This document shows, one piece after another, positions 11,958 to 36,369 of a stretch of DNA of 46,295 nucleotides. The stretch's first letter is position 1, and each line of letters begins with the position of its first letter. A model generated the notes under the pieces. The model was not told the origin of the DNA. It saw only the letters and a list, made by a program, of their open reading frames with translations, and made no database searches. The DNA comes from an uncultured Stenotrophomonas sp. (GTDB lineage: Bacteria > Pseudomonadota > Gammaproteobacteria > Xanthomonadales > Xanthomonadaceae), in NCBI GenBank assembly GCA_913775725.1, contig CAJYNG010000016.1, forward strand, positions 1-46,295, in the 5' to 3' direction. Position numbers and translations under genes: made by a program.

Positions 11958-11975
11958 ACGTCATGCCGATGTCAT
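11958..11975 (+). promoter_or_regulatory. Candidate PhoB box
   Basis: acgtcat-gccg-atgtcat is a pair of 7-bp half sites with 11-bp spacing, the geometry of the Pho box (CTGTCAT, 4 bp, CTGTCAT). It matches 11 of 14 half-site bases. It lies 49 bp before the receptor/phospholipase pair, which fits control by phosphate starvation. The spacer is not A/T-rich, so it is a candidate only. Confidence 0.45.
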
Positions 11976-12024: not shown

Positions 12025-14403
12025 ATGCGAACGATTGCGCGTTTTCCCCGTGTCTCGCTGCTGGCTCTGCTGATCGCCCCCGCCCTGGACGCCCTCGCAG
12101 AAGCACCGCAGGGCGAGACGGGCCAAGCGCGCAGCAGCGATGCACGTACCCTCGACCAGGTACAGGTGATTGGCCAGGCCACCAGCTACGCGAAGACTTC
12201 GGTGCGCGCGGAAACGCTGAATCGGCAGACGGTGATGAGCAGCGTCAACGACGCGCTCAACGAAGTGCCGGGCGTGGTGGTCAGCGAGGCCGATGCCACC
12301 GGCTCCTCGGTGTGGGGCACGCAGATCAGCATGCGCGGGTTCGTCACCAACCGTGATACCCAGCAGATCGGCACCACCATCGACGGTCTGCCCAATGGCG
12401 GCTCGGGTTACGGCGGCGGTTCGCTGGCCAACCGCTACATCGATACCCTGGACCTGGAAACCGTGGAAGTCAGCCAGGGCACCGCTGATATCTCCTCCCG
12501 CTCGAACGAGGCCCTGGGCGGCACCCTGAACTTCCTCACCAGCGACCCGCTGCAGGACAGCCGTCTGCGCTTCGTGGTGGGCGCCGGTGACAACGAGGCA
12601 CGCAAGTACTACGTGCGCTACGACACCGGCCTGCTCGGCGGCCACACCCGCGCCTGGGTCAGTGCCTCCTCGTCGAAGGTGCACGACTGGATCGATGGCA
12701 CCGGCCACGCCAGCAACGACCACATCGCCGGCAAGTTCATCACCGAACTGGATCGCTGGACGCTGACCGGCTACCTGTCCTACAACGATGCCGACGAGCC
12801 CGAATACACCAGTGTTTCGCCGAAGAGCTTCGCCACCAACCCGGAGCGCGACAACCTGGTCGGCACCCTCACCGGCATTCCCTACCTGGACCAGAACTAC
12901 CGCTCCGGCTCGCGTGCGCTGCGTGAGAACACCTTCGGCTACCTGCGTGCGGCCTTTGACGGCGGCAATGGCTTCAAAGCCTCGGTGGCCGCCTATGGCC
13001 ACCGCATGCAGGGCCGCGGCGACTGGCTGCCGCCGTACCTGGCGCAGGTCAGCGATGAGGGTGCGGGCCGCCCCGAGTCGGAGTACATCGGTGGAAAAAC
13101 CGTGTACGGCGGCAACAACCGTGGCCAGATTTTCTTCGTCAATCTCGATGGCAGCGCTGCGCAGCGCCTGGCCAGCTGCACCCCGCGCCTGGGCTTCACC
13201 GCCGAGTACGATCCGAACTGCTACGCGGGCAACGTGCTGGGCGCGCAGTCCTACCGCCACACCCACTACGACAACGACCGCATGGGCGTGACCGCCGACG
13301 TCGAATGGCGCCAGACCTTCGGCGCAGTCGACAACACCATCCGCGGCGGCCTGTGGGTGGAGAAGCTGGACCGTTCGGCGCGCCGCGACTGGCACCGCCT
13401 GCTCAACGTCGGCCAGGACATCGCCTTCGATCATCAGCCGTACTGGGTGCAGTTCGAGGACAAGTACAAGGTCGACGAGCAGATGTACTACGTCGAGGAC
13501 GTGGCCCGCTTCGGACCGTTCAGCGCCCGCCTCGGCGTGAAGCAGTTCTTCGTGGACCAGTCGCGCCGCCGCGTGATCGGCGCCAGCGAACACGTGACGT
13601 CCGATTCCAAGTCCGATCCGCTGCTGTCCACCGGCTTCACCTGGGCACCGGGCGTGGAAGGCATGGAGTTGTTTGCTGGCTTCTCGCAGAATTTCGCCGC
13701 CATCCCCTCCGGCGTGCTCGGCGAGACCGACCCGCAGCGCTTCCGCAACGTCGAACCGGAAACCGCCGACAACATCGAAGTGGGCATGCGCATCAGCCGC
13801 TGGCCGCTGACCGCCTCGGTCACGCTGTACAACATCAAGTTCGACAACCGCATCGTCTACCTGCCGGCAGGTTTCGTCAGTGGCATCGACTACCTGGGCG
13901 AGACCGACGGTGTCTACGAGAACTTCGGCGGCGTGGAAAGCAACGGCCTGGAAGCCGCGTTCGGCTATGGTTGGGACAACGGCTGGCGGCTCAACGCCGC
14001 ATACACCTACAACCGCTCCAAGTACCTGGGCAGTGGCGATGCAGCACGCGATACCCAGCTGGGCATCGTCGATGGCGCCAAGGTGATCGGCCAGCCGGAA
14101 AACACCCTGGTGCTGTCGGCCGACTGGCAGGGCGCGAACTGGAACTTCGGCCTGTCCGGCCGTTACCTGGGCACGCGCTACCTCGACGCCGCCAACGTCA
14201 ACAAGCTGCCCTCGGCCACCGTGTTCAACGCCAACATCGGCTTCGACCTGCAGGGGCTGTCGCCGCGCCTGAAGGGCATGGGCGCCAACCTGGTGGTGAG
14301 CAACCTCACCGACAAGCGGTATCTTGCAGGGGTGGACGGCCGCGACAACGCCTTCATCGGCGCCCCGCGCACCGTCGGCATCTCCTTCCGCGTGGACCTG
14401 TGA
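12025..14403 (+). CDS. TonB-dependent receptor paired with phospholipase C
   Basis: This 792-residue outer-membrane receptor has a signal peptide ending near APALDALAEA. Its TonB-box region (TLDQVQVIGQA) is followed by a plug at about 60-175 (NDALNEVPGVVVSE, RGFVTNRDTQQIGTTIDG, VEVSQGTADISSRSNEALG) and a beta-barrel ending FRVDL. There is no STN domain. The phospholipase C gene starts directly at its stop codon, so the two are translated together. The receptor therefore probably binds or imports a product of phospholipid breakdown, or another organophosphate. A PhoB-like box lies upstream. The ligand is inferred from context, not from the receptor sequence. Confidence 0.92.
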   Translation: MRTIARFPRVSLLALLIAPALDALAEAPQGETGQARSSDARTLDQVQVIGQATSYAKTSVRAETLNRQTVMSSVNDALNEVPGVVVSEADATGSSVWGTQISMRGFVTNRDTQQIGTTIDGLPNGGSGYGGGSLANRYIDTLDLETVEVSQGTADISSRSNEALGGTLNFLTSDPLQDSRLRFVVGAGDNEARKYYVRYDTGLLGGHTRAWVSASSSKVHDWIDGTGHASNDHIAGKFITELDRWTLTGYLSYNDADEPEYTSVSPKSFATNPERDNLVGTLTGIPYLDQNYRSGSRALRENTFGYLRAAFDGGNGFKASVAAYGHRMQGRGDWLPPYLAQVSDEGAGRPESEYIGGKTVYGGNNRGQIFFVNLDGSAAQRLASCTPRLGFTAEYDPNCYAGNVLGAQSYRHTHYDNDRMGVTADVEWRQTFGAVDNTIRGGLWVEKLDRSARRDWHRLLNVGQDIAFDHQPYWVQFEDKYKVDEQMYYVEDVARFGPFSARLGVKQFFVDQSRRRVIGASEHVTSDSKSDPLLSTGFTWAPGVEGMELFAGFSQNFAAIPSGVLGETDPQRFRNVEPETADNIEVGMRISRWPLTASVTLYNIKFDNRIVYLPAGFVSGIDYLGETDGVYENFGGVESNGLEAAFGYGWDNGWRLNAAYTYNRSKYLGSGDAARDTQLGIVDGAKVIGQPENTLVLSADWQGANWNFGLSGRYLGTRYLDAANVNKLPSATVFNANIGFDLQGLSPRLKGMGANLVVSNLTDKRYLAGVDGRDNAFIGAPRTVGISFRVDL

Positions 14404-14411
14404 GTGAGCCC

Positions 14412-16520
14412 GTGACTGATATCGGCCGACGCCGGTTGTTGCAGGCCGGCGTTGCCGCCGGCCTTTCCCCGCTGCTGCCCAGCATTGCCCGGGCCGCAGC
14501 GATCGCCCCCGCCGCGCAGACGCGCAGCCTGGAAGACCTGCAGCACATCGTGGTGTTCATGCAGGAGAACCGCTCGTTCGACCACTACTTCGGCACGCTG
14601 CCGGGGGTACGTGGTTTCGGCGACCGCTTCGTGGCCCCTGCGCCGGCATTGCAGGCCGGCGGCCGCACCCGCAGCCTGTGGCTGCAACCCGATGCCAGCG
14701 GCCAGCGCGCGATCGCACCGTTCCCGCTGGATACCGCCGCGCACTTCGGCTACATGCGGGTGGATGGCACACCGCACACCTGGCCGGACGCACAGCGGGC
14801 CTGGGACCACGGGCGCATGGGGCAATGGCCGAAGGCCAAGCAGAACCACTCGATGGGCTACTTCCAGCGCAGCGACCTGCCGTTCCAGTTCGCCCTGGCC
14901 GATGCCTTCACGATCTGCGACGCCTACCACTGCGCGATGCAGGCCGGCACCAACCCGAACCGGGTGTTCCTGTGGACCGGCCACAATGATGCACACGCGC
15001 GTGCTGGTGGCCCGGTGATCGCCAACTCGCACGACAATTTCCCCGAACAGGGCGGGCACCCGGCGTCTTACCGCTGGACCAGCTATGTCGAGCGCCTGCA
15101 GAACGCCGGCGTGTCCTGGCAGATCTACCAGGACATGGCCGACAACTTCACCGACAACCCGCTGGCCGGTTTCGAGGTATTCCGCCAGGCCCATCGCGCC
15201 GCGCCGGGGCATGACCCGCAGTTGCGCGCACGCGGTGTCAGCACCCGTGGCCTGGCGCAGCTGCGCCAGGACGTGATCGGTGGGCGCCTGCCGCAGGTCT
15301 GCTTCATCATCGCCGACGCGGCCGGCAGCGAGCATCCCGGCCCCTCCAGCCCCGCCCAGGGCGCGGCCTATACCGCGCGCGTGCTGGACGCGCTGACCGC
15401 CGATCCAGAGGTGTGGAGCCGCACCGCGCTGTTGTTGATGTTCGACGAGAACGACGGCTTCTTCGACCACATGCCGCCACCGGCACCGCCTTCACCGCTG
15501 GGCACCGGCTGGGCAGGTGCGTCTTCGGTCAGTACCGAGGGCGAGTACCACCGCCATCCGGCACCGGGCGACGAGAAGTACGACCTCGCCGAACTGCGTG
15601 GCCGCCCATACGGGCTGGGTCCGCGCGTGCCGCTGTATGTGATCTCGCCGTGGAGCCGCGGTGGCTGGGTCGATTCGCAGGTGTACGACCACACCTCGGT
15701 CATACGGTTGATCGAACGTCGCTTCGGTGTGGCCGCACCGAACATCTCGCCGTGGCGCCGCGCGGTCTGCGGTGACCTGAGCAACGCTTTCGACTTCGCC
15801 CAGCGCGATACCCGCCCGTTCGTACGCGGCCTGCCGGACGTGAGCGCGGTGGCCGCGCGTGCCGCCGCCCTGCCGGGACGCACCGTGCCCGCGTTGCCCG
15901 AGGGACTGAAGCCGGCGAAACAGGAAAGCGGTGTACGCCCGGCGCGTGCCCTGCCCTACCGGCCGCAGGCATCGATTGCCGCTGTCGACGCCTCGGGTGT
16001 GGATCTGGCGCTGTCCTGCGAAGGCGCAGCAGCAGTGCTGCATGTCTACGACCGGCTGCGGCTGGATGCGGTGCCACGCCGCTACACGCTGCTGCCGGGC
16101 ATGCCGCTGCGCGAGCGCTGGCCGCTCGATGCCCAGGGCCGCTATGACCTGTGGCTGCTGGGCCCGAACGGCTTCCACCGCCACTTCCAGGGGGCGGCCA
16201 CGGGTCCTGCTGTGCAGGCTTCAATTGATCGCACGGATGGCCAACTGCGGCTGCGCCTGCGCAACCTGGGTGGCAGCGCGCAGCAGGTGCGTGTACAGGC
16301 GGGCGCCTATGCCGGACACATGCCGGAGCAGACGGTGGCACTGCCGGCGCATGCAGAGACTTCGTTGGCGTGGGATGCAACGCCTACCGCAGGCTGGTAC
16401 GACCTGCTCGTCGGTGCGGGCGACAGTGCCCTGCGCCTGGCCGGCCGCGCCGAGGATGGGCGTCCTGGCACCAGTGACCCGGCGATGGGCAGCGAACCAC
16501 TGCGCTTCGAGCACGATTGA
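14412..16520 (+). CDS. Phosphocholine-specific phospholipase C, Tat-exported
   Basis: This 702-residue protein has a twin-arginine signal (IGRRRLLQAGVAAG) for export as a folded enzyme. The phosphoesterase domain starts with VVFMQENRSFDHYFGTLPGV (residues 47-66), whose Glu/Asn bind the catalytic metal, and later has MFDENDGFFDHMPPP. Two C-terminal DUF756-like repeats follow from about residue 510. This is the PlcH/PlcN layout and length. It splits phosphatidylcholine or sphingomyelin to diacylglycerol and phosphocholine. The GTG at 14412 lies 8 bases after the receptor stop; an alternative GTG at 14400 would overlap it. Either way the pair is coupled. Confidence 0.9.
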   Translation: MTDIGRRRLLQAGVAAGLSPLLPSIARAAAIAPAAQTRSLEDLQHIVVFMQENRSFDHYFGTLPGVRGFGDRFVAPAPALQAGGRTRSLWLQPDASGQRAIAPFPLDTAAHFGYMRVDGTPHTWPDAQRAWDHGRMGQWPKAKQNHSMGYFQRSDLPFQFALADAFTICDAYHCAMQAGTNPNRVFLWTGHNDAHARAGGPVIANSHDNFPEQGGHPASYRWTSYVERLQNAGVSWQIYQDMADNFTDNPLAGFEVFRQAHRAAPGHDPQLRARGVSTRGLAQLRQDVIGGRLPQVCFIIADAAGSEHPGPSSPAQGAAYTARVLDALTADPEVWSRTALLLMFDENDGFFDHMPPPAPPSPLGTGWAGASSVSTEGEYHRHPAPGDEKYDLAELRGRPYGLGPRVPLYVISPWSRGGWVDSQVYDHTSVIRLIERRFGVAAPNISPWRRAVCGDLSNAFDFAQRDTRPFVRGLPDVSAVAARAAALPGRTVPALPEGLKPAKQESGVRPARALPYRPQASIAAVDASGVDLALSCEGAAAVLHVYDRLRLDAVPRRYTLLPGMPLRERWPLDAQGRYDLWLLGPNGFHRHFQGAATGPAVQASIDRTDGQLRLRLRNLGGSAQQVRVQAGAYAGHMPEQTVALPAHAETSLAWDATPTAGWYDLLVGAGDSALRLAGRAEDGRPGTSDPAMGSEPLRFEHD

Positions 16521-16527
16521 AGGATCT

Positions 16528-16605
16528 CTGTAGAGCCGAGCCCATGCTCGGCTGCTTTTCCGGTCAGTTATCAAAGAGCAGCCGAGCATGGGCTCGGCTC
16601 TACAG
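16528..16605. repeat. SMAG (GTAG) hairpin between convergent genes
   Basis: The left arm (16528-16555), ctgtagagccgagcccatg onward, pairs exactly with the right arm (16578-16605), ending ggctcggctctacag. It is the same family as 2234-2298, with a single-base variation in the stem (cccatg here, cccacg there). It lies between the phospholipase C and phoD stops and can terminate both. Confidence 0.87.
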
Positions 16606-16620
16606 GGTAGACCGGTAGTT

Positions 16621-18216
16621 TCAGGCCTCCTGCAGCCCTGGCCGGCCGTGCTCCACCGCATAGCGCTTCCAGCTCTGCAGCGCGCCATTCGGCTGCATCA
16701 CTGTATCCAGCGTCTTCATGTCGCCGATCCACGCATCGCGGGTGACATCGCACAGCACGTAGCCCCGCTTGTCGGTGGTCGCCTTCAGATAGGGGCTATG
16801 CGCAAGCTGGTTCCTGGCATACGCGTCCACACCCTGGCCATCGGCGCCGGAAGTGATCGACGTGGCGAGGAACTCGCTGGAGATCACGCCCGAGTCACGG
16901 TGGTCCTGCACCAGATCGCTGGCATAGTGGCGATGCGCGTCGCCGCAGGCGGTCACCACGTTGCCGAAGCCCACCTTCTGGATGTGGTCAAGCAGGCGCC
17001 GGCGGCTGTCCAGATAGCCTGACCACTGGTCGTCTGACGACTGCACCACCCCGTCTTTCTCGCGCATGTAGTTGCCCAGCGCCACCTGGTGGGCGATCGT
17101 GTGCCAGCGTGGCGCAGCATCGGCCAGGCCGTCGAACAGCCAGCGCTCCTGCTTCGCCCCCACAATGCTGCGCTCCGGCGATTCCACCTCCTCACGCAGC
17201 GCCATGTTCACCTGCTTGCTGCGGTACTGGCGGGTGTCCAGCAGGTGCAGGTCCATCAGCGTGCCGTAGCGTGCGCGTCGGTACATCTGCATGTGGCCAT
17301 CGCGCGGGAATGCCGAACGGCGCAGTGGCATGTTCTCGTAGTAGGCCTGGAACGCCTGTGCGCGACGCAGCAGGAACACTTCGCTGGGCGTATCGTCCTG
17401 GTCTTCGGCACCGGCCCAGTTGTTGTCCACCTCATGATCATCGAAGGTGACGAACCACGGTGCCGACGCATGCGCGGCCTGCAGGTCGGCATCGCTCTTG
17501 TACTGGGCGTAGCGGCGGCGGTAATCGTCCAGCGTGTAGGTCTGCGGCCCGACATGATTACGCAGGTTGGTGAACGGCTGGCCGTTCATCTTACGCAGGC
17601 CCGGCTGGCTTTCGCCTTCGTAGATGTAATCACCGTAGTGGAAGACGAAATCCAGCGGCTCCTCGGCAATGCGCCGCCACGCGGTGTAGTGGCCTTCTTC
17701 GAAGTGCTGGCAACCGGCCACCGCAAAGCGCACGCGATCCACCACGGCCGTAGCTGCGGGCAGCGTGCGGGTGCAACCGACCGCACTGGCGTGCCCGCCT
17801 ACGGTGAAGCGGTACCAGTAGGGCCGTCCGGGCGCCAATCCGTCCAGCTCCACGTGCACGGCGTGGCCGAGTTCGGGATGCGCCATTGCCGAACCCTGGC
17901 GCACCACCTTGCGCATGCCATCGTCTGCTGCCAGTTGCCACTCGACCACCATCGGCCGGGTTGGCATGCCGCCACCGAACACCAGTGGCTCAGTTGCCAG
18001 CCGTGTCCACAGCACCATGCCATCGGGCGAAGGATCACCCGAGGCCACGCCCAGGGTGAACGGCGTGCTGGCGAACCGCGGCGAGGCCAGCAGATTGCGC
18101 GGGTTCAGCGCGGTGGCATCGGTCTGCGCGGCCAGCGCGTCCGCCATGCCCATCCAGGCAGCGGCGGCAGAGAGGCCGGCCAGGGCCAGGAATCGCCTGC
18201 GATTGATTGTCTCCAC
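16621..18216 (-). CDS. phoD: PhoD-family alkaline phosphatase / phosphodiesterase
   Basis: This 531-residue protein has a Tat signal (INRRRFLALAGLSAAAAW). It has an N-terminal PhoD domain (TLGVASGDPSPDGMVLWTRL) and the metallophosphatase motifs AGCQHF at about 167-172, HYGDYIYEG at about 193-201, TFDDHEVDNNW at about 257-267 and ACGDAHRH further on. PhoD releases phosphate from mono- and diesters outside the cytoplasm using Fe and Ca. The start is a GTG at 18216 with GAGG eight bases upstream. It begins 10 bp after the STN-receptor gene, so it belongs to the sigma/FecR/receptor operon. Confidence 0.92.
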   Translation of the reverse strand: METINRRRFLALAGLSAAAAWMGMADALAAQTDATALNPRNLLASPRFASTPFTLGVASGDPSPDGMVLWTRLATEPLVFGGGMPTRPMVVEWQLAADDGMRKVVRQGSAMAHPELGHAVHVELDGLAPGRPYWYRFTVGGHASAVGCTRTLPAATAVVDRVRFAVAGCQHFEEGHYTAWRRIAEEPLDFVFHYGDYIYEGESQPGLRKMNGQPFTNLRNHVGPQTYTLDDYRRRYAQYKSDADLQAAHASAPWFVTFDDHEVDNNWAGAEDQDDTPSEVFLLRRAQAFQAYYENMPLRRSAFPRDGHMQMYRRARYGTLMDLHLLDTRQYRSKQVNMALREEVESPERSIVGAKQERWLFDGLADAAPRWHTIAHQVALGNYMREKDGVVQSSDDQWSGYLDSRRRLLDHIQKVGFGNVVTACGDAHRHYASDLVQDHRDSGVISSEFLATSITSGADGQGVDAYARNQLAHSPYLKATTDKRGYVLCDVTRDAWIGDMKTLDTVMQPNGALQSWKRYAVEHGRPGLQEA

Positions 18217-18226
18217 GGCTGCGCCC

Positions 18227-21160
18227 TCAGTTGTAGATGATGTGGAAGTAGAAGAAGCGGCCGTAGTCGTCGATCTCAGTACGGAAGCGCCCGTTCGGAC
18301 CGGTGCTGTAGGTCGGCTGGGTGTTGAACAGATTCTTGGCCTCGTACTTCAGCGTCACGTGCTTGCTGACCTTGTGGCTGAAGGCCATGTTGAAGGTCAT
18401 GCACGGATCGTAGTAGGAATCCAGCCACTGGGTGTCGCCGAAGTCGACCAGCATCCGGCTGCGGTAGGTGCCGGACAAACGCAGCTGCGCGCTCTTCCAC
18501 GGCATGCGCCAGATCACCGAGCCATTGAGCGACCAGTCCGGCTGGTACAGCAGGCGGTCCAGGCGGCGCTCGGTGCCATCACTGATGCGGTAGTTGGTCT
18601 GGCCTTCCAGCCGCGTGGCGTTGAAGTACATGTCGAAGCGCTGGCGGCCCCACTGCAGGTTGCGGTTGGCCACCGCGAACTCGACGCCGCGCAGCGTGGA
18701 CTCATCGGTGTTCATCGGCTGGGTCACCCGGTAGCGCGTGTCACCCACGTTCTCGAAGGTGGTCAGGGTGTAGATGTCGTCCTTGATCACCTTGTCGAAC
18801 AGCGCCACCGAGACCAGACCGTTGTTGCCGTTGAAGTACAGGTCCCACGCCAGGTCGATGTTGGTGGAACGTCGCGGCTGCAGATCGGCATTGCCCTGCT
18901 TGATGGTGCAGAAGCCCCTGCCCTCCTCGTCATCGCCACAACTGGTGCTGGTGGCCTGGGCGATGTTGCTCGGCGTCGGCCGGCCCAGCGTGCGGCTGGC
19001 GGAGAAGCGCAGGCGCTGGTCCTCGGTGAGCTTGAAGGTTGCGTTCAACGAGGGCAGCAGATTGTTGTAGCCACCGCTGGTCGTTCGGAAGGCAGAGGTA
19101 TAGGTGGTGCCACCATCGTCGCTGAATGGACTGTAGGCATCAAAGCGGGTGTGGTCGTAGCGCAGGCCGCCGATCAGCAGCAACCGGTCCCAGGCGCAGT
19201 GCGCGGATACATAGGCATTGGTGATGTCCTCCACGTACTTGTAGTCGCCGGTGAAGTTGGCATTCGGATAAGCCTTGTTGTTGCTGCCCAGCGTCGGCGC
19301 CAGCTCCTCGTTCCACTTGCGGTTGTCGATCAGCGGGAAGCCCGGCACGCTGCCCAGCAGCGTCGAACCCGGGTACAGGTAATCGTTCAGTGTCGCGCTG
19401 CTCTTGTAGTAATCGAAGTCGATGTCCTGCCAGATCTTCAGGTGGCGGTACTCGGCACCGGCGGCCAGGCCGAAGCCGCGCGCATCGGCATCGATGTTGT
19501 AGCTGAAGTCGGCGCGCAGGTTGTCGATGCTCTCCTTGGCGTCGCGCGGCGAGACATAGGCCTGTGCCGAGTTGAGCTTGAACGCCGAGCTGGTCAGCAG
19601 GCTGGAATCGGAAACGGCCACCGCGTTGGGGAAACCGTGGCTGTCATTCTCGTAATCGACGAACAGATTGCTTGGGTAGGCGCGCACCCCCCAGTAAACC
19701 TGGTTGTTGTGGAAGGTCTCTTCGGTGTGGCCACCGCGCAGGGTCAGCCGCGAGCGATCACCGATATCCCAGTTGAAGCTGGCGATGGCACCGCGGTTGT
19801 TGCGGTCCCAGCGGTCGTGCCGGTTCTTGATGTAGATGCTGTTGATCTGGGTGGTGCCGCTGTCCCCGGTCTGGTTACGGATCGGAAACTTGGCATTGCC
19901 GTACAGATCGGTCTTGTTCATCGTCGAGTTCTCGTAGAACCGGTACGAGTACAGCAGCAGCGATGCGTAGAACGGATCATCCGAGGGCTTCCACTCGAGC
20001 TTGGCAGAGCCGCCGAAGTTGGTGATGAAGTTGGTATAGGTGCCGGTGCTGAAGTTGCCAGGCGCACGCAGCCCGTTCCAGCCCTTGGCCTCGTCCGGAC
20101 CCGTGGTACCGTCGGTGAGGTATTTGCCAGCATCGTTGTAGTAGTAGTTCGACTCCACCCAGCGCTTGACGCTGTTGCGCGAGCGCTGTTCATAGCGCGC
20201 CACCGCAACGATGCCGAATTCCTGGTCGGCGCCGAACTGGTTGGAGAACACCATCTTGGCGCTCTTGCCGAAGTGACCCAGGGTCTCGTGGTTGCCGCCA
20301 GCGCTGCGCTCGACGCTGGTCTCGGCGGTGGAATAGATGCCTGCCACATCGGCAAACACGTACTTGCCGGACCGGTCGAAAGCACTGCGGCTGATGATGT
20401 CGATCACGCCACCGATCGCATCCGGTGCCTGCTCCGCACTGAAGCTCTTGTAGATGTCGGTACGGGTGCCGATGTCGCTGGGAATCAGCTGCAGGTTGTT
20501 CATGCGCTCGCCGGAGCCACTGCCTCCCACGCTGGCAATCGCGATGCCATCGATGGTGGTGTAGTTGAGGTTGGCCTGTACACCGCGCACGGTCACGTAA
20601 CGTGGCTCACCGGCATCCTCCACCGCGCTCAGGCCTGGAGCGGCCATCAGGCTCTCGGCCAGAGTCTCGTCGCCGTAGCTGTCCATCTCGTCGTAGACCA
20701 CCGAATCCTTGATCACCGGCGAGGTCTTCTTCTGGTCGATCACCTCGTGCGCGGCAATCACCTTCACCGTGCCCAGGGTCGGCGCGACCACTGCCTCGGC
20801 CTCGCGCGGCCTCGGCGCGGCCGACTTCGGCTCGTTGCGCGCTGGCGCTGGATCGATGGCGATGACGTTGCCATCCACCACGGTGTAGCCCAGGCCGGTC
20901 CCTGCCAGCAGCGCGTCCAGCGCCTGCTTGACGGTGGCACCGCGCGGCACCGCGCCGGCCATGTGCACTTCTCCACTGCCCGAATACAGGAACTGCACGC
21001 CGGAACTGCGCGACAACTGCTCCAGTGCACGTGCCAACGGCTGCGCTGCGATCGGTGCCGAAACGCGGGCCTCGAGGCCATCGGCAGTGGCCGCAGCCGC
21101 CAGCGGCACGCTGCAGGGAGACAGGGCGAGGATGATCGACAGGTAGAGCGTGTTGCGCAT
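18227..21160 (-). CDS. TonB-dependent receptor with N-terminal STN signalling domain
   Basis: This 977-residue receptor has a signal peptide ending PLAAAATA. An STN (secretin/TonB short N-terminal) domain follows at about 33-103 (RALEQLSRSSGVQFLYSG, LLAGTGLGYTVVDGNVIAI). Then come a linker, a plug at about 130-260 (ETLAESLMAAPGLSAVED, VTVRGVQANLNYTTIDG, AEQAPDAIGGVIDI) and a beta-barrel. The STN domain is the part that contacts FecR-type anti-sigma factors in the periplasm, and sigma and FecR genes lie just upstream. PhoD lies 10 bp downstream, pointing to an organophosphate ligand. ATG at 21160 has AAGGA six bases upstream and is preferred over GTG at 21163. Confidence 0.93.
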   Translation of the reverse strand: MRNTLYLSIILALSPCSVPLAAAATADGLEARVSAPIAAQPLARALEQLSRSSGVQFLYSGSGEVHMAGAVPRGATVKQALDALLAGTGLGYTVVDGNVIAIDPAPARNEPKSAAPRPREAEAVVAPTLGTVKVIAAHEVIDQKKTSPVIKDSVVYDEMDSYGDETLAESLMAAPGLSAVEDAGEPRYVTVRGVQANLNYTTIDGIAIASVGGSGSGERMNNLQLIPSDIGTRTDIYKSFSAEQAPDAIGGVIDIISRSAFDRSGKYVFADVAGIYSTAETSVERSAGGNHETLGHFGKSAKMVFSNQFGADQEFGIVAVARYEQRSRNSVKRWVESNYYYNDAGKYLTDGTTGPDEAKGWNGLRAPGNFSTGTYTNFITNFGGSAKLEWKPSDDPFYASLLLYSYRFYENSTMNKTDLYGNAKFPIRNQTGDSGTTQINSIYIKNRHDRWDRNNRGAIASFNWDIGDRSRLTLRGGHTEETFHNNQVYWGVRAYPSNLFVDYENDSHGFPNAVAVSDSSLLTSSAFKLNSAQAYVSPRDAKESIDNLRADFSYNIDADARGFGLAAGAEYRHLKIWQDIDFDYYKSSATLNDYLYPGSTLLGSVPGFPLIDNRKWNEELAPTLGSNNKAYPNANFTGDYKYVEDITNAYVSAHCAWDRLLLIGGLRYDHTRFDAYSPFSDDGGTTYTSAFRTTSGGYNNLLPSLNATFKLTEDQRLRFSASRTLGRPTPSNIAQATSTSCGDDEEGRGFCTIKQGNADLQPRRSTNIDLAWDLYFNGNNGLVSVALFDKVIKDDIYTLTTFENVGDTRYRVTQPMNTDESTLRGVEFAVANRNLQWGRQRFDMYFNATRLEGQTNYRISDGTERRLDRLLYQPDWSLNGSVIWRMPWKSAQLRLSGTYRSRMLVDFGDTQWLDSYYDPCMTFNMAFSHKVSKHVTLKYEAKNLFNTQPTYSTGPNGRFRTEIDDYGRFFYFHIIYN

Positions 21161-21265
21161 CACGGGTCCTTGGAAGAGAGAAGGCAGCAGGCGCCGCTGC
21201 GTGGCTCGGCAGCGGCTTCTCCCAAGTAAGAGCCCGCATCCACCGAAGTGGAGAACGCGGATTCG

Positions 21266-21283
21266 ATGAATTTTTTCTGACAG
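21266..21283 (-). promoter_or_regulatory. Candidate PhoB box upstream of the STN receptor
   Basis: Read on the minus strand, CTGTCAG-AAAA-AATTCAT has the Pho-box geometry: two 7-bp half sites 11 bp apart with an A-rich spacer. It matches 6/7 in the first half and 4/7 in the second. It lies about 105 bp before the receptor start and after the FecR gene. It is weak evidence on its own, but it is the second such candidate in this phosphorus block. Confidence 0.35.
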
Positions 21284-21301
21284 TCCACGGCCACGTCGGC
21301 C

Positions 21302-22324
21302 TCAGCGACTGCCAACCCGCACGGTGTCGCCTTCGCGCTTCACCACGAAACGCGGGTCGCGTTCGAGGAAGGCCTGCAGCGCACCGATGCGATGCGCATC
21401 GAGACTGCCCGACAACCGTGCCGATGCCGCGCCTTCGTCCAGCACGCGGACCTGCACCTGGTTGTGCCGGTTGAAGGCAGCGGCTACCTCATCCAGCCGC
21501 TCATCCAGGAAGGACACCTTGCGTTGCTGCCAGTCCAGCAGCATCGACAACGGTACATCCAGCGACTCCACCGCATGACTGCGCGCGTCGACCTGCACCA
21601 CCCGGCCTTCGCCCAGTTGCGCAAGACGCCGGGTGTCCGCCCCCTGGCTCCATACCTCCACCTCGCCGGAAACCACGCCGATACGCGTGCCCTGCAACCG
21701 TCGGGACACATCGAACACCGTGCCGATATCGCGGATCTGCAACCCGTTCACCTGTACCTCGAAGGGCCGCCGGTCAGGAGCGATGTCGAACGTGGCCTCG
21801 CCCTGCAGCAGCTCCACTCGGCGGCTGAACCAGCCCATGCGCGCCCGCAGGCGGCTGTCCGCGTTGAGCCGCACCTGGGTCTGGTCGGGCAGCACCAGCT
21901 CACGCAGTTCACCATGGTCGGCACTGTACAGCTGCTCGGTGGGCATCAGCTGCGGAACCAGGCCCACACCGAGCAGGGCGATACAGGCTGCGGCGGCCAT
22001 CACCCACCAGCGCACACGACCGCGATGCGGCGCAACGCGCGGCGGCACGTGCGCGCTACCGAACAGCGGCACCACCTTGGCGGCTGCCTGCCGTGGCGGC
22101 ACCGGCGCCTCTTCAGGCAACGGCGATTGCAGCGCCTCACCGACCTGCCGGTGCACCGCAAGGGCATGCATATAGGCGCGCACGTGCTCCGGCGAGCGCT
22201 TCATCCAGTCCAGGAACGCAACCCGCTCGGCCTCGCCCAGTGTTCCGTCGCGATTGCGCAGGAACCAGTCCATGGCCTCGCAGGCGATCGTGTCGTCGAC
22301 CACGGTAGATGCGTTCCGGTTCAT
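21302..22324 (-). CDS. FecR-family anti-sigma factor
   Basis: This 340-residue protein has an N-terminal DUF4880 anti-sigma domain (EAMDWFLRNRDGTL, DWMKRSPEHVRAYM). One membrane segment lies at about 106-126 (WWVMAAAACIALLGVGLV). A periplasmic FecR domain follows (YSADHGELRELVLPDQTQVR, LLQGEATFDIA, GTVFDVSRR, GVVSGEVEVW), then a C-terminal STN-like part that docks the receptor. It holds the sigma factor inactive until the receptor signals. The ATG at 22324 overlaps the sigma stop by 4 bp, so production is coupled to the sigma factor. Confidence 0.93.
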   Translation of the reverse strand: MNRNASTVVDDTIACEAMDWFLRNRDGTLGEAERVAFLDWMKRSPEHVRAYMHALAVHRQVGEALQSPLPEEAPVPPRQAAAKVVPLFGSAHVPPRVAPHRGRVRWWVMAAAACIALLGVGLVPQLMPTEQLYSADHGELRELVLPDQTQVRLNADSRLRARMGWFSRRVELLQGEATFDIAPDRRPFEVQVNGLQIRDIGTVFDVSRRLQGTRIGVVSGEVEVWSQGADTRRLAQLGEGRVVQVDARSHAVESLDVPLSMLLDWQQRKVSFLDERLDEVAAAFNRHNQVQVRVLDEGAASARLSGSLDAHRIGALQAFLERDPRFVVKREGDTVRVGSR

Positions 22325-22836
22325 GTGTGCTCCCTGGCGCCCAGCGCCTTCCTGCAGGCCTCCAGCCCCTTGCCGATGTGCTTGCGCACCATGTGCACCG
22401 ACACCTGCAACTGCTGGCTGATTGCCGGGCAATCCAGCCCATCGCGGTAATGCAGCTCCATCACCCGCCGCGTGGTGGCCGGCAGCCGAGCGATGGTGGT
22501 GCGGATATCGTTCCAGCGCTGCGCACGCTCGAATTCGCCTTCGATGTCTTCTTCGCTTTTCAGCACTTCGGCCAGCAGATCGACATCTTCCAGCGGCGGC
22601 AGCGACGACCGCGCGCGCGCATGCTCGCGCGCCAGGTTGGCCGCCACGGTGAACAGGTAGGCTTCCGGGTTCTCGACCGCATCGGCATCCTCGCCGGTGC
22701 TGCGCAGCAGCCGCAGGTAAACCTCCTGCGCCAGGTCTTCGGCATCCTCGCTGGCCGAACCGCGGCGCAGGAAGAAGCCACGCAGCAGCCGACGCCGCAA
22801 CGCGTAGCTCTTCTCCCAGATCCTCACGCTGTTCAC
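22321..22836 (-). CDS. ECF sigma factor, FecI type
   Basis: This protein of about 171 residues has sigma region 2 (DAEDLAQEVYLRLLR, PEAYLFTVAANLAREHARA) and region 4 (IARLPATTRRVMELHYRDG, ISQQLQVSVHMVRKHIGKG). This is the pattern of ECF sigma factors of the FecI group, which are paired with FecR and a signalling TonB receptor. It should direct RNA polymerase to the receptor/phoD operon once released. The start is uncertain. I chose GTG at 22836; a TTG at 22905 with an over-close GGAGG is possible but gives a non-homologous extension. Confidence 0.88.
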   Translation of the reverse strand: MNSVRIWEKSYALRRRLLRGFFLRRGSASEDAEDLAQEVYLRLLRSTGEDADAVENPEAYLFTVAANLAREHARARSSLPPLEDVDLLAEVLKSEEDIEGEFERAQRWNDIRTTIARLPATTRRVMELHYRDGLDCPAISQQLQVSVHMVRKHIGKGLEACRKALGAREHT

Positions 22837-22973
22837 GGCCGGCCAACCACCCCAAGGCTGGAAAGCCCCGCAGGGTGACCGCCATCGATGACAGTGGCGT
22901 TTCAACCTCCGGCAGGCAGCCGCTAGAATGCCGCCCCTTCAATGTCCCGGCAGCCCGCACAAGGAGTGCTCCC

Positions 22974-33011: not shown

Positions 33012-35183
33012 TCAGTAGCCGACCTTCACCGTGAACATCACGTTTCGCGGTGCCCCGTACCAGCCCTGGTTGTAGAAGCCGATCTGCGAGTAGTAATGGC
33101 GATCAAACAGGTTGTTGATGTTGACCGCCGCCGACACATTGGAACTGAACTGGTAGCGCGCCATCAGGTTCACCAGTGCGTAGCTGGGCTGCTCCACCGG
33201 CACCCGGCGATTTCCGGGCGCGGTGGCGGTCTGGTACATGCGGTTCTGCCAGTCCACGCCACCGCCGATCGTCAGCCGGTCCCAGGTACCCGGCAGCCGC
33301 CAGGTGGTGAACAGCTTGAACAAGCTGCGCGGCTTGGCGGTGTTGATCGCCCTGCCCTGCGCGTCCTGCGCGATGAAGGTGGTGAAGCTGGTGCCCAGGC
33401 TCCAGCCCGGCAGTGGTTCGCCGGCCAGTTCCAGTTCCAGGCCGTCCACCGTTGCGCCCTTCACCGCACGATACGCCGCCTGCGTACTGCCCTCGACCAG
33501 ACCACCCGTGGCCTCGGCGAGATTGTCCTGCTGGGTGCGGAACAGCGCCGCCGACGCATTCAAGCGCTCCTGCAGCCAGCTGCCCTTGAGGCCCAGCTCA
33601 TAGCTGCGGCCGCTGACCGGGTCGAGGATCTGCCCGGATTCATTGCGGTTGTTCTGCGGCTTGAAGATACCGGTGTAGCTGGCGTAGACGCTGCTGTAGC
33701 CGTTGAGGTCCCAGACCACACCGGCATACGGCACGAACTCGTTGCGGTAGCGGTACTTGCGCTTGCTGCCGAAGTAGACCTGGTCGGTCTCCCAGTTGCT
33801 CAGGCGGCCACCGACGATCACATGCAGCGGATCAGCCAGCGACAGCCGCACCACCGCATAGGCACCGCTCTGATGATTGTCCAGATCATCGGCCTGGGTC
33901 TTGCTGCTGGCCCACACCGGTTCCGGCGTACCGGGCCCGTGCCAGTCCAGGTAGCTGGCCAACGGCGGCAGCGGCGCCAGTGCGCGGTACTGCCCCAGTG
34001 CGATCTCGTCGCGTGAGCGCGACCAGCCGACGGACGCAGTGTGCTGGCGGCCGAACAGCTGGAAGGGACCGGTCAGACTGACACTGACCGCCTCGCGGCG
34101 CACCGGACCGTCGTAGCGGGTGAAGCTGTTGCCTGCAGGCATGGCGCCGGTAACCGGATCGGGATAGCCGCCCCGGTAGAGATGCTTCATCTCCATGTCG
34201 GTATGCGAGCGGCTGTAGGACACGCGCGCCTGCCAGTCGTTGCCGAAGCGGTGGTTGAAATCGAAGAAGCCGTTGCGGGTGTCGGTGGTCATCCGTGCCC
34301 ACGGCGCGGTGGCCGATACCGAGCGGTCGAAGCCGGTACGCGTGCCGTCGGCGTTGAACAGCGCGAAGCCGCTGCCGAAGCCACGATTGTCGTTGGCCTG
34401 GTAAGAGATACCGGCGATCAATCCGGTGTCCTCGCCCAGGTCCACGCTGACCACGCCGTAGAACGTCTTCGCGGTGCTGTCCAGGCCAGCGGTGTAGCTG
34501 TCGCCCTCTGCCTGCGCAGCGACCACACGACCACGCACACGCCCTTCCCGGCTCAGCGGGCTGGACACATCCACCCAGGCGCGGCGTGCGTCCCAGCTGC
34601 CGAGGCTGATGCCGCCACTGGCAGCAAAGTCACGCAGCGGGCGCTTGCGAACGTAGTTCACCGCAGCCGACGGATTGCCGGCACCGGTCATCAGGCCATT
34701 GGCACCGCGCACGATCTCGATGCGGTCGTACACCACCATGTCCAGGTTGTTCTCGCCGAAGTTCCATGGCGACAGCACCGGCATCACCACGCCATCGAAC
34801 TGGTAGTTGTCGATGTCGAAGCCGCGTGCCGAGAACGAGTAGCGGTTGGCATCACTGCGCGTGACCGAGATGCCCGGAGCAGTGGCCAGCGCATCGGCGG
34901 TGCTGAGCAGGCCCCGGTCCTCGATCTGCTGGCGGGTGATGACGCTGACCGACTGCGGCGTCTGCCGCGAGGTCAGCGACAGCCCCGTCGCCGTGCCCAT
35001 GGAGTCAGTGGTGTAGGAACGCGAGGATTCGGTGCTGCCATCGAGGTCGGCCGTGACCTGCACGGTGGGCAACTGCGAGGTGTTCGCGGCGGGGGCGCGC
35101 TCGGCGCCGTGGGCAGTATTGAACAGCGCCAGGGTCGTGCCGATGGCGGTTGCCAGGGCGCGCGGGCGGATACAGGCGGGCAT
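33012..35183 (-). CDS. TonB-dependent siderophore receptor (FhuE/FpvA-like)
   Basis: This protein of about 723 residues has a signal peptide (ATAIGTTLALFNTAHGAE). The plug has QTPQSVSVITRQQIEDRG, VYDRIEIVRGANGLMTGAG and AAVNYVRKRP, the ferric hydroxamate receptor pattern. The barrel ends FTVKVGY. There is no STN domain. The ATG at 35183 is preferred: the longer start at 35228 would place coding sequence across the Fur-like box at 35213-35227. An AraC regulator with a PchR-like layout lies directly upstream on the same strand and probably activates this gene when the siderophore is present. It resembles the receptor at 2307-4511. Confidence 0.92.
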   Translation of the reverse strand: MPACIRPRALATAIGTTLALFNTAHGAERAPAANTSQLPTVQVTADLDGSTESSRSYTTDSMGTATGLSLTSRQTPQSVSVITRQQIEDRGLLSTADALATAPGISVTRSDANRYSFSARGFDIDNYQFDGVVMPVLSPWNFGENNLDMVVYDRIEIVRGANGLMTGAGNPSAAVNYVRKRPLRDFAASGGISLGSWDARRAWVDVSSPLSREGRVRGRVVAAQAEGDSYTAGLDSTAKTFYGVVSVDLGEDTGLIAGISYQANDNRGFGSGFALFNADGTRTGFDRSVSATAPWARMTTDTRNGFFDFNHRFGNDWQARVSYSRSHTDMEMKHLYRGGYPDPVTGAMPAGNSFTRYDGPVRREAVSVSLTGPFQLFGRQHTASVGWSRSRDEIALGQYRALAPLPPLASYLDWHGPGTPEPVWASSKTQADDLDNHQSGAYAVVRLSLADPLHVIVGGRLSNWETDQVYFGSKRKYRYRNEFVPYAGVVWDLNGYSSVYASYTGIFKPQNNRNESGQILDPVSGRSYELGLKGSWLQERLNASAALFRTQQDNLAEATGGLVEGSTQAAYRAVKGATVDGLELELAGEPLPGWSLGTSFTTFIAQDAQGRAINTAKPRSLFKLFTTWRLPGTWDRLTIGGGVDWQNRMYQTATAPGNRRVPVEQPSYALVNLMARYQFSSNVSAAVNINNLFDRHYYSQIGFYNQGWYGAPRNVMFTVKVGY

Positions 35184-35212
35184 GGGAGATCCAGCAGGAG
35201 GGAAAGGCTGGA

Positions 35213-35227
35213 TGAGAATTATTGTCA
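35213..35227. promoter_or_regulatory. Fur-like box upstream of the siderophore receptor
   Basis: TGAGAAT-T-ATTGTCA matches the 7-1-7 Fur motif TGATAAT-N-ATTATCA at 12 of 14 positions. It lies 30 bp before the chosen start of the receptor on the minus strand. Fur with Fe(II) would repress the gene when iron is plentiful. Confidence 0.7.
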
Positions 35228-35294
35228 TTTGAGCGTGAGCACACGTATGCGCGGACGCAGCAGATGTATGCGCGCTGCCGACGCTGATCGGGAG

Positions 35295-36230
35295 TCAGCG
35301 CAGCTGGCTGGGCGCGATGCCGTAGCGCGCACGGAACGCGGTGGCGAAATTCGTGGCGTGCCGGTAGCCGACGAAATGCGCGGCCTGCTGCACACTGCAG
35401 CCCTGCCGCAGCTGCTCACAGGCCAGTTGCAGGCGATGCTCGCGCAGCCAGCCGAACACCGAGCACTGATACACCTGCTGGAACTTCAGGCGCAGGCTGC
35501 TTGGGCTCATGCAGGCCAGGCGCGCCAGATCCTCCAGGCAATGGTCGGCGGCTGGAGCCGCCTGCAGGCAATCCATCACCCGCTGCAGCATGCGGCGGTC
35601 ACGTGCTGAAACACGCAGGTCCGGCGATGCCTCCCGCGCAGGCGACCCCAGCGCCAGGGCCAGCATCTGCAGGCCGATACCCTCGCACAGCAGTGCATGC
35701 ATCGCGCCGTGCCAACTGCCCGACAGCAGCTGGTCGGCGGCGTGCTCGAGGTGCCCAGGCACCTGCCAACCACGCAACCGCGGGTGACCGGTGCGGTGCG
35801 CGGTGGACAGCAGCTCGCTGATCATCGGGTCGTCAATCCCGTCGGGTGCCTCCAACGAGACATTCAGGCTGCGCATCCGCTGCCCTGCGGGATGAATCGC
35901 GGTCATCGGCGCCGCCTCGGCCAGCACCATCGCGCCGGCACCCGGGCTCATGCCGATCACCGCCTGCCCCGCCAACCGGGCCCCTGCGCGTCCCTCCAGC
36001 ATCACGATCGCCGAGAAGGCCGGCGGCGATTCCGAGGTTGCCTCGAACGGCTGATGGGCGATCACGTCCGACAGCGCCAAGGTCATGCCCGGGCGCAGGC
36101 GACGCTGCTCCACCCTACCCTGCACGACGCACTGTTCACCCGACAGATCGGCGGCCAGCGCAGGCAGGCGATAGCGGAAGCCGCTGCTGCGGCCCAGGCG
36201 ATCGAGGTCGGCAAGGGTGAGGTTGAGCAT
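35295..36230 (-). CDS. AraC-family regulator, PchR-like
   Basis: This 311-residue protein ends in an AraC double helix-turn-helix domain at about 215-311 (LEDLARLACMSPSSLRLKFQ, VFGWLREHRLQLACEQLRQG, AAHFVGYRHATNFATAFRAR). The N-terminal part (1-200) is a ligand-sensing region of the PchR type. Regulators of this layout sit next to siderophore receptors and activate them when the ferric siderophore is bound. Its stop is 111 bp before the receptor start. ATG at 36230 begins MLNLTLADLDRLG. A Fur-like sequence at 36266-36280 lies just upstream. Confidence 0.9.
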   Translation of the reverse strand: MLNLTLADLDRLGRSSGFRYRLPALAADLSGEQCVVQGRVEQRRLRPGMTLALSDVIAHQPFEATSESPPAFSAIVMLEGRAGARLAGQAVIGMSPGAGAMVLAEAAPMTAIHPAGQRMRSLNVSLEAPDGIDDPMISELLSTAHRTGHPRLRGWQVPGHLEHAADQLLSGSWHGAMHALLCEGIGLQMLALALGSPAREASPDLRVSARDRRMLQRVMDCLQAAPAADHCLEDLARLACMSPSSLRLKFQQVYQCSVFGWLREHRLQLACEQLRQGCSVQQAAHFVGYRHATNFATAFRARYGIAPSQLR

Positions 36231-36265
36231 GATGGGACCAGGCTGGATCGTCCTGCATTTTCATA

Positions 36266-36280
36266 TGCGAACCATTCTCA
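36266..36280. promoter_or_regulatory. Weak Fur-like box between AraC gene and ZnuD-like receptor
   Basis: tgcgaac-c-attctca matches the 7-1-7 Fur motif at 10 of 14 positions; the right half is the better one. It is 36 bp from the AraC start, so it would act on that gene. PchR-type regulators are often Fur-controlled, which fits. Confidence 0.4.
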
Positions 36281-36323
36281 TATCCAGCCTCTGCCGCAAG
36301 GCCCATTCCACCCTTGTCGATAC

Positions 36324-36346
36324 AAATAGTTACGTTATAACATTTC
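36324..36346. promoter_or_regulatory. Zur-like box upstream of the ZnuD-like receptor
   Basis: Aligned to the Zur consensus GAAATGTTATA-N-TATAACATTTC, the sequence from 36324 has a perfect right half (tataacatttc, 36336-36346) and 6 of 11 matches in the left half. It lies 23 bp before the receptor ATG at 36370. This is where a zinc-responsive repressor would block transcription. Confidence 0.7.
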
Positions 36347-36369
36347 ACATTGTTTTCACGGATCGTGCC

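Follow-up and report, generated by a model that had tools for sequence, protein, structure and literature searches.

Gene content and occurrence of the operon

The DNA analysed in this study, called the window throughout, is a stretch of 46,295 nucleotides from an uncultured Stenotrophomonas sp. (contig CAJYNG010000016.1, assembly GCA_913775725.1). Attention was given to four genes on its minus strand which encode, in this order, an extracytoplasmic function (ECF) sigma factor, a FecR regulator, a TonB-dependent receptor with an STN domain and a PhoD-like phosphatase. A first-pass annotation had described this four-gene strand, and the open reading frames, Pfam and NCBIfam agree that it is real and correctly placed. 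The genes and the two elements that precede them are as follows.

22836-22321, minus strand: ECF sigma factor, FecI-like partner of FecR; 171 aa, GTG start; Sigma70_r2 and Sigma70_r4_2 above the Pfam cut-off
22324-21302, minus strand: FecR sigma regulator; 340 aa; Pfam FecR and DUF4880 above the cut-off; one hydrophobic segment
21163-18227, minus strand: TonB-dependent receptor with STN; 978 aa; Pfam STN, Plug and barrel above the cut-off; TonB-Xanth-Caul subfamily
18216-16621, minus strand: PhoD-like phosphatase/phosphodiesterase; 531 aa, GTG start; PF09423 and PF16655 above the cut-off
22888..22905, minus strand: Pho-type box by a pstS-derived matrix, TTGAAAC and CTGTCAT around GCCA (TTGAAACGCCACTGTCAT), 52-69 bp before sigma
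21282-21250, minus strand: bipartite promoter-like element, two blocks that hardly vary with a less conserved spacer between them; probable sigma-dependent promoter

The 4-bp overlap of sigma with fecR and the 10-bp gap between the receptor and phoD, both given in the first-pass annotation, are borne out by the coordinates. The STN domain that it reported scores 30.7 bits against a Pfam cut-off of 28.4, and its membrane segment in FecR, a protein that we aligned with 11 other FecR sequences, is a hydrophobic stretch located by eye at about residues 106-127. The receptor has a full plug and barrel (Pfam) and matches the TonB-Xanth-Caul model TIGR01782 at 390 bits (cut-off 310), with no match to the siderophore-receptor model or to SusC/RagA in the NCBIfam scan. 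Having an ECF sigma, a FecR and an STN receptor together, the cluster is predicted to be a FecI/FecR cell-surface signalling (CSS) system.

The fourth product begins with a leader which, judged by its motif, is probably of the twin-arginine type. Its PhoD domain scores 339 bits and is accompanied by an N-terminal PhoD_N (Pfam), and the NCBIfam PhoD equivalog model gives 518 bits, below the model cut-off of 1000. The alignment with the structure of Bacillus subtilis PhoD (2yeq) has an E value of 1.7e-131. According to the available part of the report on that enzyme, replacement of C180, D265, N271, N272 or D436 abolishes or lowers activity (PMC4223295). Residues C169, D259, N265, N266 and D426 of the window protein correspond to these five metal ligands, under an inferred numbering offset of 56 between the published residues and the alignment that fits all five. 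With its PhoD domain and its Cys and Asp/Asn ligands, the product would belong to the Cys-subfamily of PhoD phosphatases.

With reference to distribution, a receptor orthologue (at least 85% identity) is present in 31 of the 91 genus genomes examined and a sigma orthologue (at least 77% identity) in the identical set of 31, the two sets having been matched by hand. The operon is thus an accessory yet conserved unit, missing from the remaining 60, of which five hold just a distant receptor relative (32-37% identity). In 31 of 32 loci, the window being one of the 32, the genes for FecR, receptor and PhoD follow one another on the same strand, with 9 to 12 bp between the receptor stop and phoD. 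The sole exception (L009, genome G001) is without FecR, and the count stands outside three further loci without FecR (L010-L012) and genome G220. The identical genome sets together with the adjacency rule out a chance gene order. Over a longer stretch, all 13 orthologous loci examined hold the four genes; the neighbouring aceE and receptor-phospholipase C (PLC) genes are kept in nine, and the other four (L047-L050) have no match to the window's flanking genes, yet hold the four genes together.

Among 42 named loci the full operon was found in 19, which come from Stenotrophomonas (for the most part S. maltophilia), [Pseudomonas] hibiscicola and Xanthomonas sp. AmX2; S. maltophilia D5.1 has the closest named receptor, at 98%. 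A phylum-wide draw with the receptor profile gave matches in 5 of 398 genomes, all Stenotrophomonas, with at most two candidates scored per genome, so that this draw cannot establish absence elsewhere. In S. maltophilia Sm46PAILV (L176 9948-11539; L031 is from the same genome), phoD is split over two overlapping frames, reflecting either a frameshift or an assembly error, and the remaining three operon genes are full-length matches.

Putative control elements before sigma and the receptor

The Pho matrix derives from the promoters of pstS genes in other genomes within the family. Of the 30 pstS loci gathered, that of the window's own genome (L120) was excluded, and 19 of the 29 regions yielded a site. 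With this matrix the box before sigma scores 15.9 bits, or p 3.2e-5 per position and about 0.006 over the 183 positions scanned, against a background of about 285,000 positions from the window's genome in which real Pho sites are included; the genome's own pstS site reaches 16.9. The site recurs with scores of 11.2 to 21.0 in all 14 loci of the first set scored. In a second scan, which took whichever orientation scored higher, 30 of 30 loci have it at positions -66 to -72 with 11.0 to 21.0. It is kept in the more diverged L047, L048 and L050, and in L038 it has only two mismatches to the textbook consensus. Across the seven most diverged loci its mean identity is 0.75 against a sliding median of 0.43, which places it sixth of 139 windows. 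Nine other FecR loci of the same genome, scanned over fixed stretches rather than from exact gene starts, do not exceed 10.3 on the sigma side; one of the nine (L214) does not resemble a CSS locus. These data support a phosphate link for the operon and point to the sigma-side box, which scores higher than the receptor-side one, as the Pho-type site that carries weight.

The first-pass annotation had placed a weak Pho-like box before the receptor and proposed two layers of control. Its letters exist (CTGTCAGAAAAAATTCAT), as part of a longer bipartite element (TGTCAGAAAAAATTCATCGAATCCGCGTTCTCC). Among the seven loci that have diverged most, this element has a mean identity of 0.93, where the sliding median is 0.72, and ranks third of 164 windows. 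At up to three mismatches the full element is matched once in the genome, as is its left block alone, and the TGTNA-plus-A-run pattern occurs in none of the nine other FecR loci. All 14 loci scored have a site of the CTGTCAGAAAAAATTCAT type, with a Pho-matrix value of 7.5-11.7, an A-rich middle and a second half-site that is off consensus, as it is without the G present in all 19 matrix sites, a departure common to all 14. In nine paralogous operons (L149-L157) the left block stands nearly unchanged before the receptor in eight, with a looser version in L154, and the right block differs, being near GGTGCCCGATC in eight of nine. The shared left block would look like a -35-type block of paralogous sigmas, and the right block like a diverged -10-type block.

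Because the element is bipartite, has a single genome match and is common to paralogous CSS operons with a different right block, it is most simply, and probably, a sigma-dependent promoter. A plain Pho box was rejected as its description, being off consensus at the G of all matrix sites, single in the genome and bipartite; it is kept among the rivals weighed below because its mismatch count equals that of the sigma-side box (4 each). Two promoters, and with them two layers of control, are supported by sequence, with the Pho-type site assigned before sigma instead of before the receptor.

The annotation had also preferred phosphate over iron as the role of the system, and this preference is supported by the box before sigma, by the want of a Fur-like site and by relatives, described below, that keep the receptor-phoD pair without signalling genes. 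Before sigma, the best agreement with the Fur consensus within 250 bp is 9 of 19, a value reached by 834 of 1000 random stretches, and the same count finds no Fur-like site before the receptor either. Fur control of sigma and FecR, as in the iron members of the FecI/FecR systems, is therefore not suggested by these regions. Over 420 bp searched, scores of 15, 13 and 12 occur at only three of the nine other FecR loci, which makes the contrast with the operon a partial one; iron control was rejected for want of a Fur-like site. Elsewhere in the window, positions 33012-38700 hold a FauA-like siderophore receptor (above the model cut-off) and a ZnuD-like receptor (below it).

Related receptor-enzyme loci

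Relatives without the signalling genes were found for the receptor-phoD pair. L051 and L052 have receptors 77-79% identical over plug and barrel and phoD genes 76-77% identical, with no STN and no sigma or FecR match nearby; reading the frame upstream, the leader runs straight into the TonB-box region. L053 and L054 have the same arrangement, at about 40% for the receptor and 60-63% for phoD. A sigma orthologue is lacking throughout these four genomes (best 35-49% identity), FecR having been looked for at the locus only, while genome G111, where STN is present, has a sigma orthologue at 88%. As these four STN-less relatives keep receptor and phoD and are without a sigma orthologue, the sigma-FecR-STN front end is probably a later addition to a pre-existing receptor-phoD pair.

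In the 42 named loci the receptor adjoins PhoD in 36. Besides the 19 with sigma, FecR, STN receptor and PhoD, 14 have a receptor-PhoD pair without STN or an adjacent upstream sigma/FecR match, three from Sphingomonadales (L197, L200, L205) combine PhoD with sigma, FecR and an STN receptor, and six are of other kinds. STN scores just below the cut-off in L197 (28.0 bits) and L200 (27.2), whose sigmas are too distant for a BLAST match to the window sigma, and at 43.8 in L205, there on a different receptor. Pho-like sites lie at L200 6886-6903 and L197 5421-5438, 106 bp before the STN receptors (p 4e-5 and 5e-5); with coordinates computed from the offset, they fall at the end of fecR and thus before the receptor, the only side scanned.

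A first tree covered 27 of the 42 named loci, and a second dropped L205a, L201, L149, L152 and L154 as too distant. On this second tree, made from the barrel without the STN region (28 rows), the eight STN rows of Stenotrophomonas and AmX2 are nested in the STN-less rows L182, L181 and L183. Three acetic acid bacteria (L195, L198, L199) were first scored STN-bearing by eye; Pfam finds no STN in L195 and L198, L199 being outside the Pfam scan. STN presence takes three changes on the tree, or two if these three are set STN-less or omitted, a count that does not separate gain from loss. Since the STN rows are nested in STN-less ones and the L197 and L200 sigmas are so distant, separate additions of the signalling module are favoured. 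In acetic acid bacteria the neighbour may also be another enzyme, namely a phospholipase C-type protein together with sigma and a DUF4880 protein in L202, and a phosphoesterase-domain protein in L198. Strong Pho boxes before the STN-less relatives were considered and rejected, the matches in L181-L183 being weak and nothing consistent being found in more distant ones.

The nine paralogous operons have sigmas 44-53% identical to that of the window and Pho-like sites on the sigma side that score 9.4 to 15.6, with at least 12 in five of the nine. The downstream enzyme was scanned in six of the nine (L150, L151 and L153 being left out), with Pfam on L149, L152, L154, L155 and L156, matching in L154 only, and NCBIfam on L149, L152, L154, L155 and L157, matching in all but L154. 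In L154 (8375-14235) the sigma-FecR-STN receptor operon is followed by a Ca-dependent PI-PLC-C1 enzyme (Pfam), and in L149, L152, L155 and L157 by a CehA/McbA-like metallohydrolase (NCBIfam, 62-70 bits). The paralogous operons thus appear to carry other phosphoesterase-type enzymes, the phosphoester action of the CehA/McbA-like ones being putative. In L151 (1852-3227), the place that the metallohydrolase takes in other loci, after the paralogous receptor, is occupied by two transposase-like open frames, recognised by eye.

A further receptor-enzyme pair stands convergent to the operon within the window:

12025..14403, plus strand: neighbouring TonB-dependent receptor; Pfam Plug and barrel, no STN match
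14400..16520, plus strand: phosphocholine-specific phospholipase C; TIGR03396 at 837.6 bits (cut-off 580)
11958..11975, plus strand: Pho-type box ACGTCATGCCGATGTCAT before the receptor-PLC pair; 17.3, p 2.1e-5

All 10 loci scored have such a Pho-type site, at -67 or -68 and with scores of 13.4-17.3. Between the convergent PLC and phoD genes lies a 32-nt inverted repeat (16528-16605, 97% complementary, 14 nt between the arms), which resembles the GTAG-type repeats of Stenotrophomonas and may act as a terminator common to both genes. The window's genome also has a second receptor-PhoD pair (L057 6682-10538), whose genes share one base and whose receptor has no STN match; only a weak Pho-like site precedes it, at 8.4 on its own strand and 11.7 on the opposite one.

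Proposed working, alternatives and known systems

We consider it moderately probable that this CSS system has been turned to phosphorus scavenging, with sigma and FecR raised by PhoB, an organophosphate as the predicted ligand of the receptor, in line with the first-pass annotation, and receptor and PhoD driven by sigma. Under phosphate starvation PhoB would bind the conserved box before sigma, so that sigma and FecR are made, and FecR, as is known for the family, would hold sigma idle. The receptor would then bind its ligand, probably a phosphodiester or an oligomer needing TonB-driven import, and the STN domain of the ligand-loaded, TonB-coupled receptor would contact the periplasmic part of FecR and free sigma. 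Freed sigma would transcribe receptor and phoD from the conserved bipartite element; an increase in importer and PhoD would therefore require both a shortage of phosphate and the presence of the substrate. PhoD would finally cut the imported ester in the periplasm, freeing phosphate for Pst uptake. In evolution, the sigma-FecR-STN front end would have joined a receptor-phoD pair that already existed without it.

Several observations weigh against the phosphorus-scavenging reading. PhoB and sigma dependence are predictions from sequence, and the 30 loci with the sigma-side box are mostly close relatives and not independent. The window's box has 4 of 14 mismatches to the textbook Pho consensus, just as the receptor-side site has, and it is because of the matrix score that it was preferred; with four mismatches it falls outside the genome scan at up to three mismatches, whose 149 places are about twice the 63 of the control. 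Another FecR locus of the genome (L211) has a Pho-like site of 15.8 near its receptor start (2292-2309), the sites before the STN-less L181-L183 (-52 to -64) are weak, and two of the five genomes with a distant receptor (L055, L056; 31-36% identity) have no sigma, FecR or PhoD match at the locus. The CehA/McbA-like matches are below the model cut-off of 80. On the iron side, six of the nine other FecR loci score only 9 to 11 for Fur, and the FauA-like and ZnuD-like receptors in the window just 9; the sensitivity of the Fur test is thus incomplete. A PDB search with the receptor profile returned two plug-only matches to the colicin I receptor and no ligand of a close receptor. The iron requirement of PhoD, which has an Fe3+ site in B. 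subtilis, belongs here too (PMC4223295, available part).

Among the alternatives, a double use of PhoB as in the PUMA3 system (VreA-VreI-VreR) of Pseudomonas aeruginosa is the strongest contender, and we still regard it as rather unlikely. PhoB would act at both promoters and recruit sigma to that of the receptor, whose ligand may matter little. The available part of the PUMA3 report describes an operon under PhoB in low phosphate, not under Fur, and pho boxes within sigma-dependent promoters where PhoB is required (PMC4971064). The equal mismatch counts and the A-rich receptor-side sites, scoring in all 14 loci, fit such a scheme, but the same sites uniformly miss the G of the matrix sites, the conservation continues past the box into a second block, and the window receptor has a full barrel, unlike VreA.

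A ferric compound as the signal, with PhoD co-transcribed as an Fe3+-requiring enzyme, is in our judgement improbable. FecI/FecR/STN systems are mostly devoted to iron, also in P. aeruginosa (PMC4971064, available part), and the ligands of the PhoD iron site are conserved in the window protein; set against this are the Fur contrast with three of the nine other FecR loci, a receptor that fits the TonB-Xanth-Caul and not the siderophore model, and the phosphoesterase-type enzymes of the paralogous operons. No greater credence is given to import of a carbon source (a nucleotide, glycan or lipid phosphate), in which a carbon compound would be the signal and PhoD would make the carbon moiety usable. 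TIGR01782 receptors abound in Xanthomonas and Caulobacter, and many of those have carbohydrates as substrates; the Pho-type box before sigma and the second Pho-boxed receptor-phosphoesterase pair adjoining the operon speak against this explanation.

When placed beside known systems, the operon shares with the E. coli FecI/FecR/FecA system the order sigma, regulator, STN receptor and, as predicted, a receptor that is transporter and sensor at once. The E. coli system responds to ferric citrate under Fur control; the window differs in its Pho-type box, its want of a Fur-like site and its PhoD. B. subtilis PhoD is a Gram-positive enzyme without a TonB receptor, and the likeness to it lies in the sequence family and the five metal ligands. 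Like PUMA3, the operon has an ECF sigma, an anti-sigma and a receptor-like CSS protein, with a Pho-type box before sigma by matrix. VreA is without a barrel and lies within the sigma operon, and the PUMA3 system drives virulence functions, whereas the window has a complete transporter, preceded by a promoter-like element of its own and followed by a phosphatase.

The first-pass annotation knew of PUMA3 alone as a related idea, to which the PUS loci of Flavobacterium johnsoniae have to be added. As the available part of their report describes them, these loci are induced by phosphate depletion and combine an ECF sigma, a FecR or both with genes for TonB-dependent transporters and for phosphatases or phosphodiesterases, and PUSI includes a Ca-dependent phosphoinositide PLC, the enzyme type seen in L154 (PMC8115612). 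They differ in belonging to Bacteroidetes, with SusCD pairs and other enzymes, and that part describes neither a PUS locus with PhoD nor a Pho box preceding sigma. No sigma-FecR-receptor-phoD operon appeared as a published topic among the titles and abstract beginnings listed in searches of open-licence literature. What is new is the predicted combination, in Proteobacteria, of a PUMA3 phosphate gate with a PUS-type transporter and phosphatase, PhoD being the cargo.

Surface signalling in Proteobacteria is known chiefly as an iron device. Here a soil and opportunist bacterium appears to put an iron-type sensor circuit to phosphorus scavenging, switching on an importer and an organic-phosphate-cutting enzyme together. 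More tentatively, Xanthomonadales may possess plug-in phosphoester sensors, in which one duplicated, PhoB-controlled sigma-FecR-STN front end sits on different importer-enzyme pairs (PhoD, PI-PLC, CehA/McbA-like), with a shared left promoter block and a changed right block that would insulate the circuits, each reporting one external phosphoester. For the circuit of the window this might be a polymer, for instance fragments of teichoic acid, B. subtilis PhoD being the closest enzyme of known structure. The natural pairs with and without the STN, sigma and FecR module permit a direct test of the front end's contribution. If the phosphorus-scavenging reading is true, there would be substrate-specific control inside the Pho response, where the signal that phosphate is scarce is joined by the signal that this particular phosphoester is outside.

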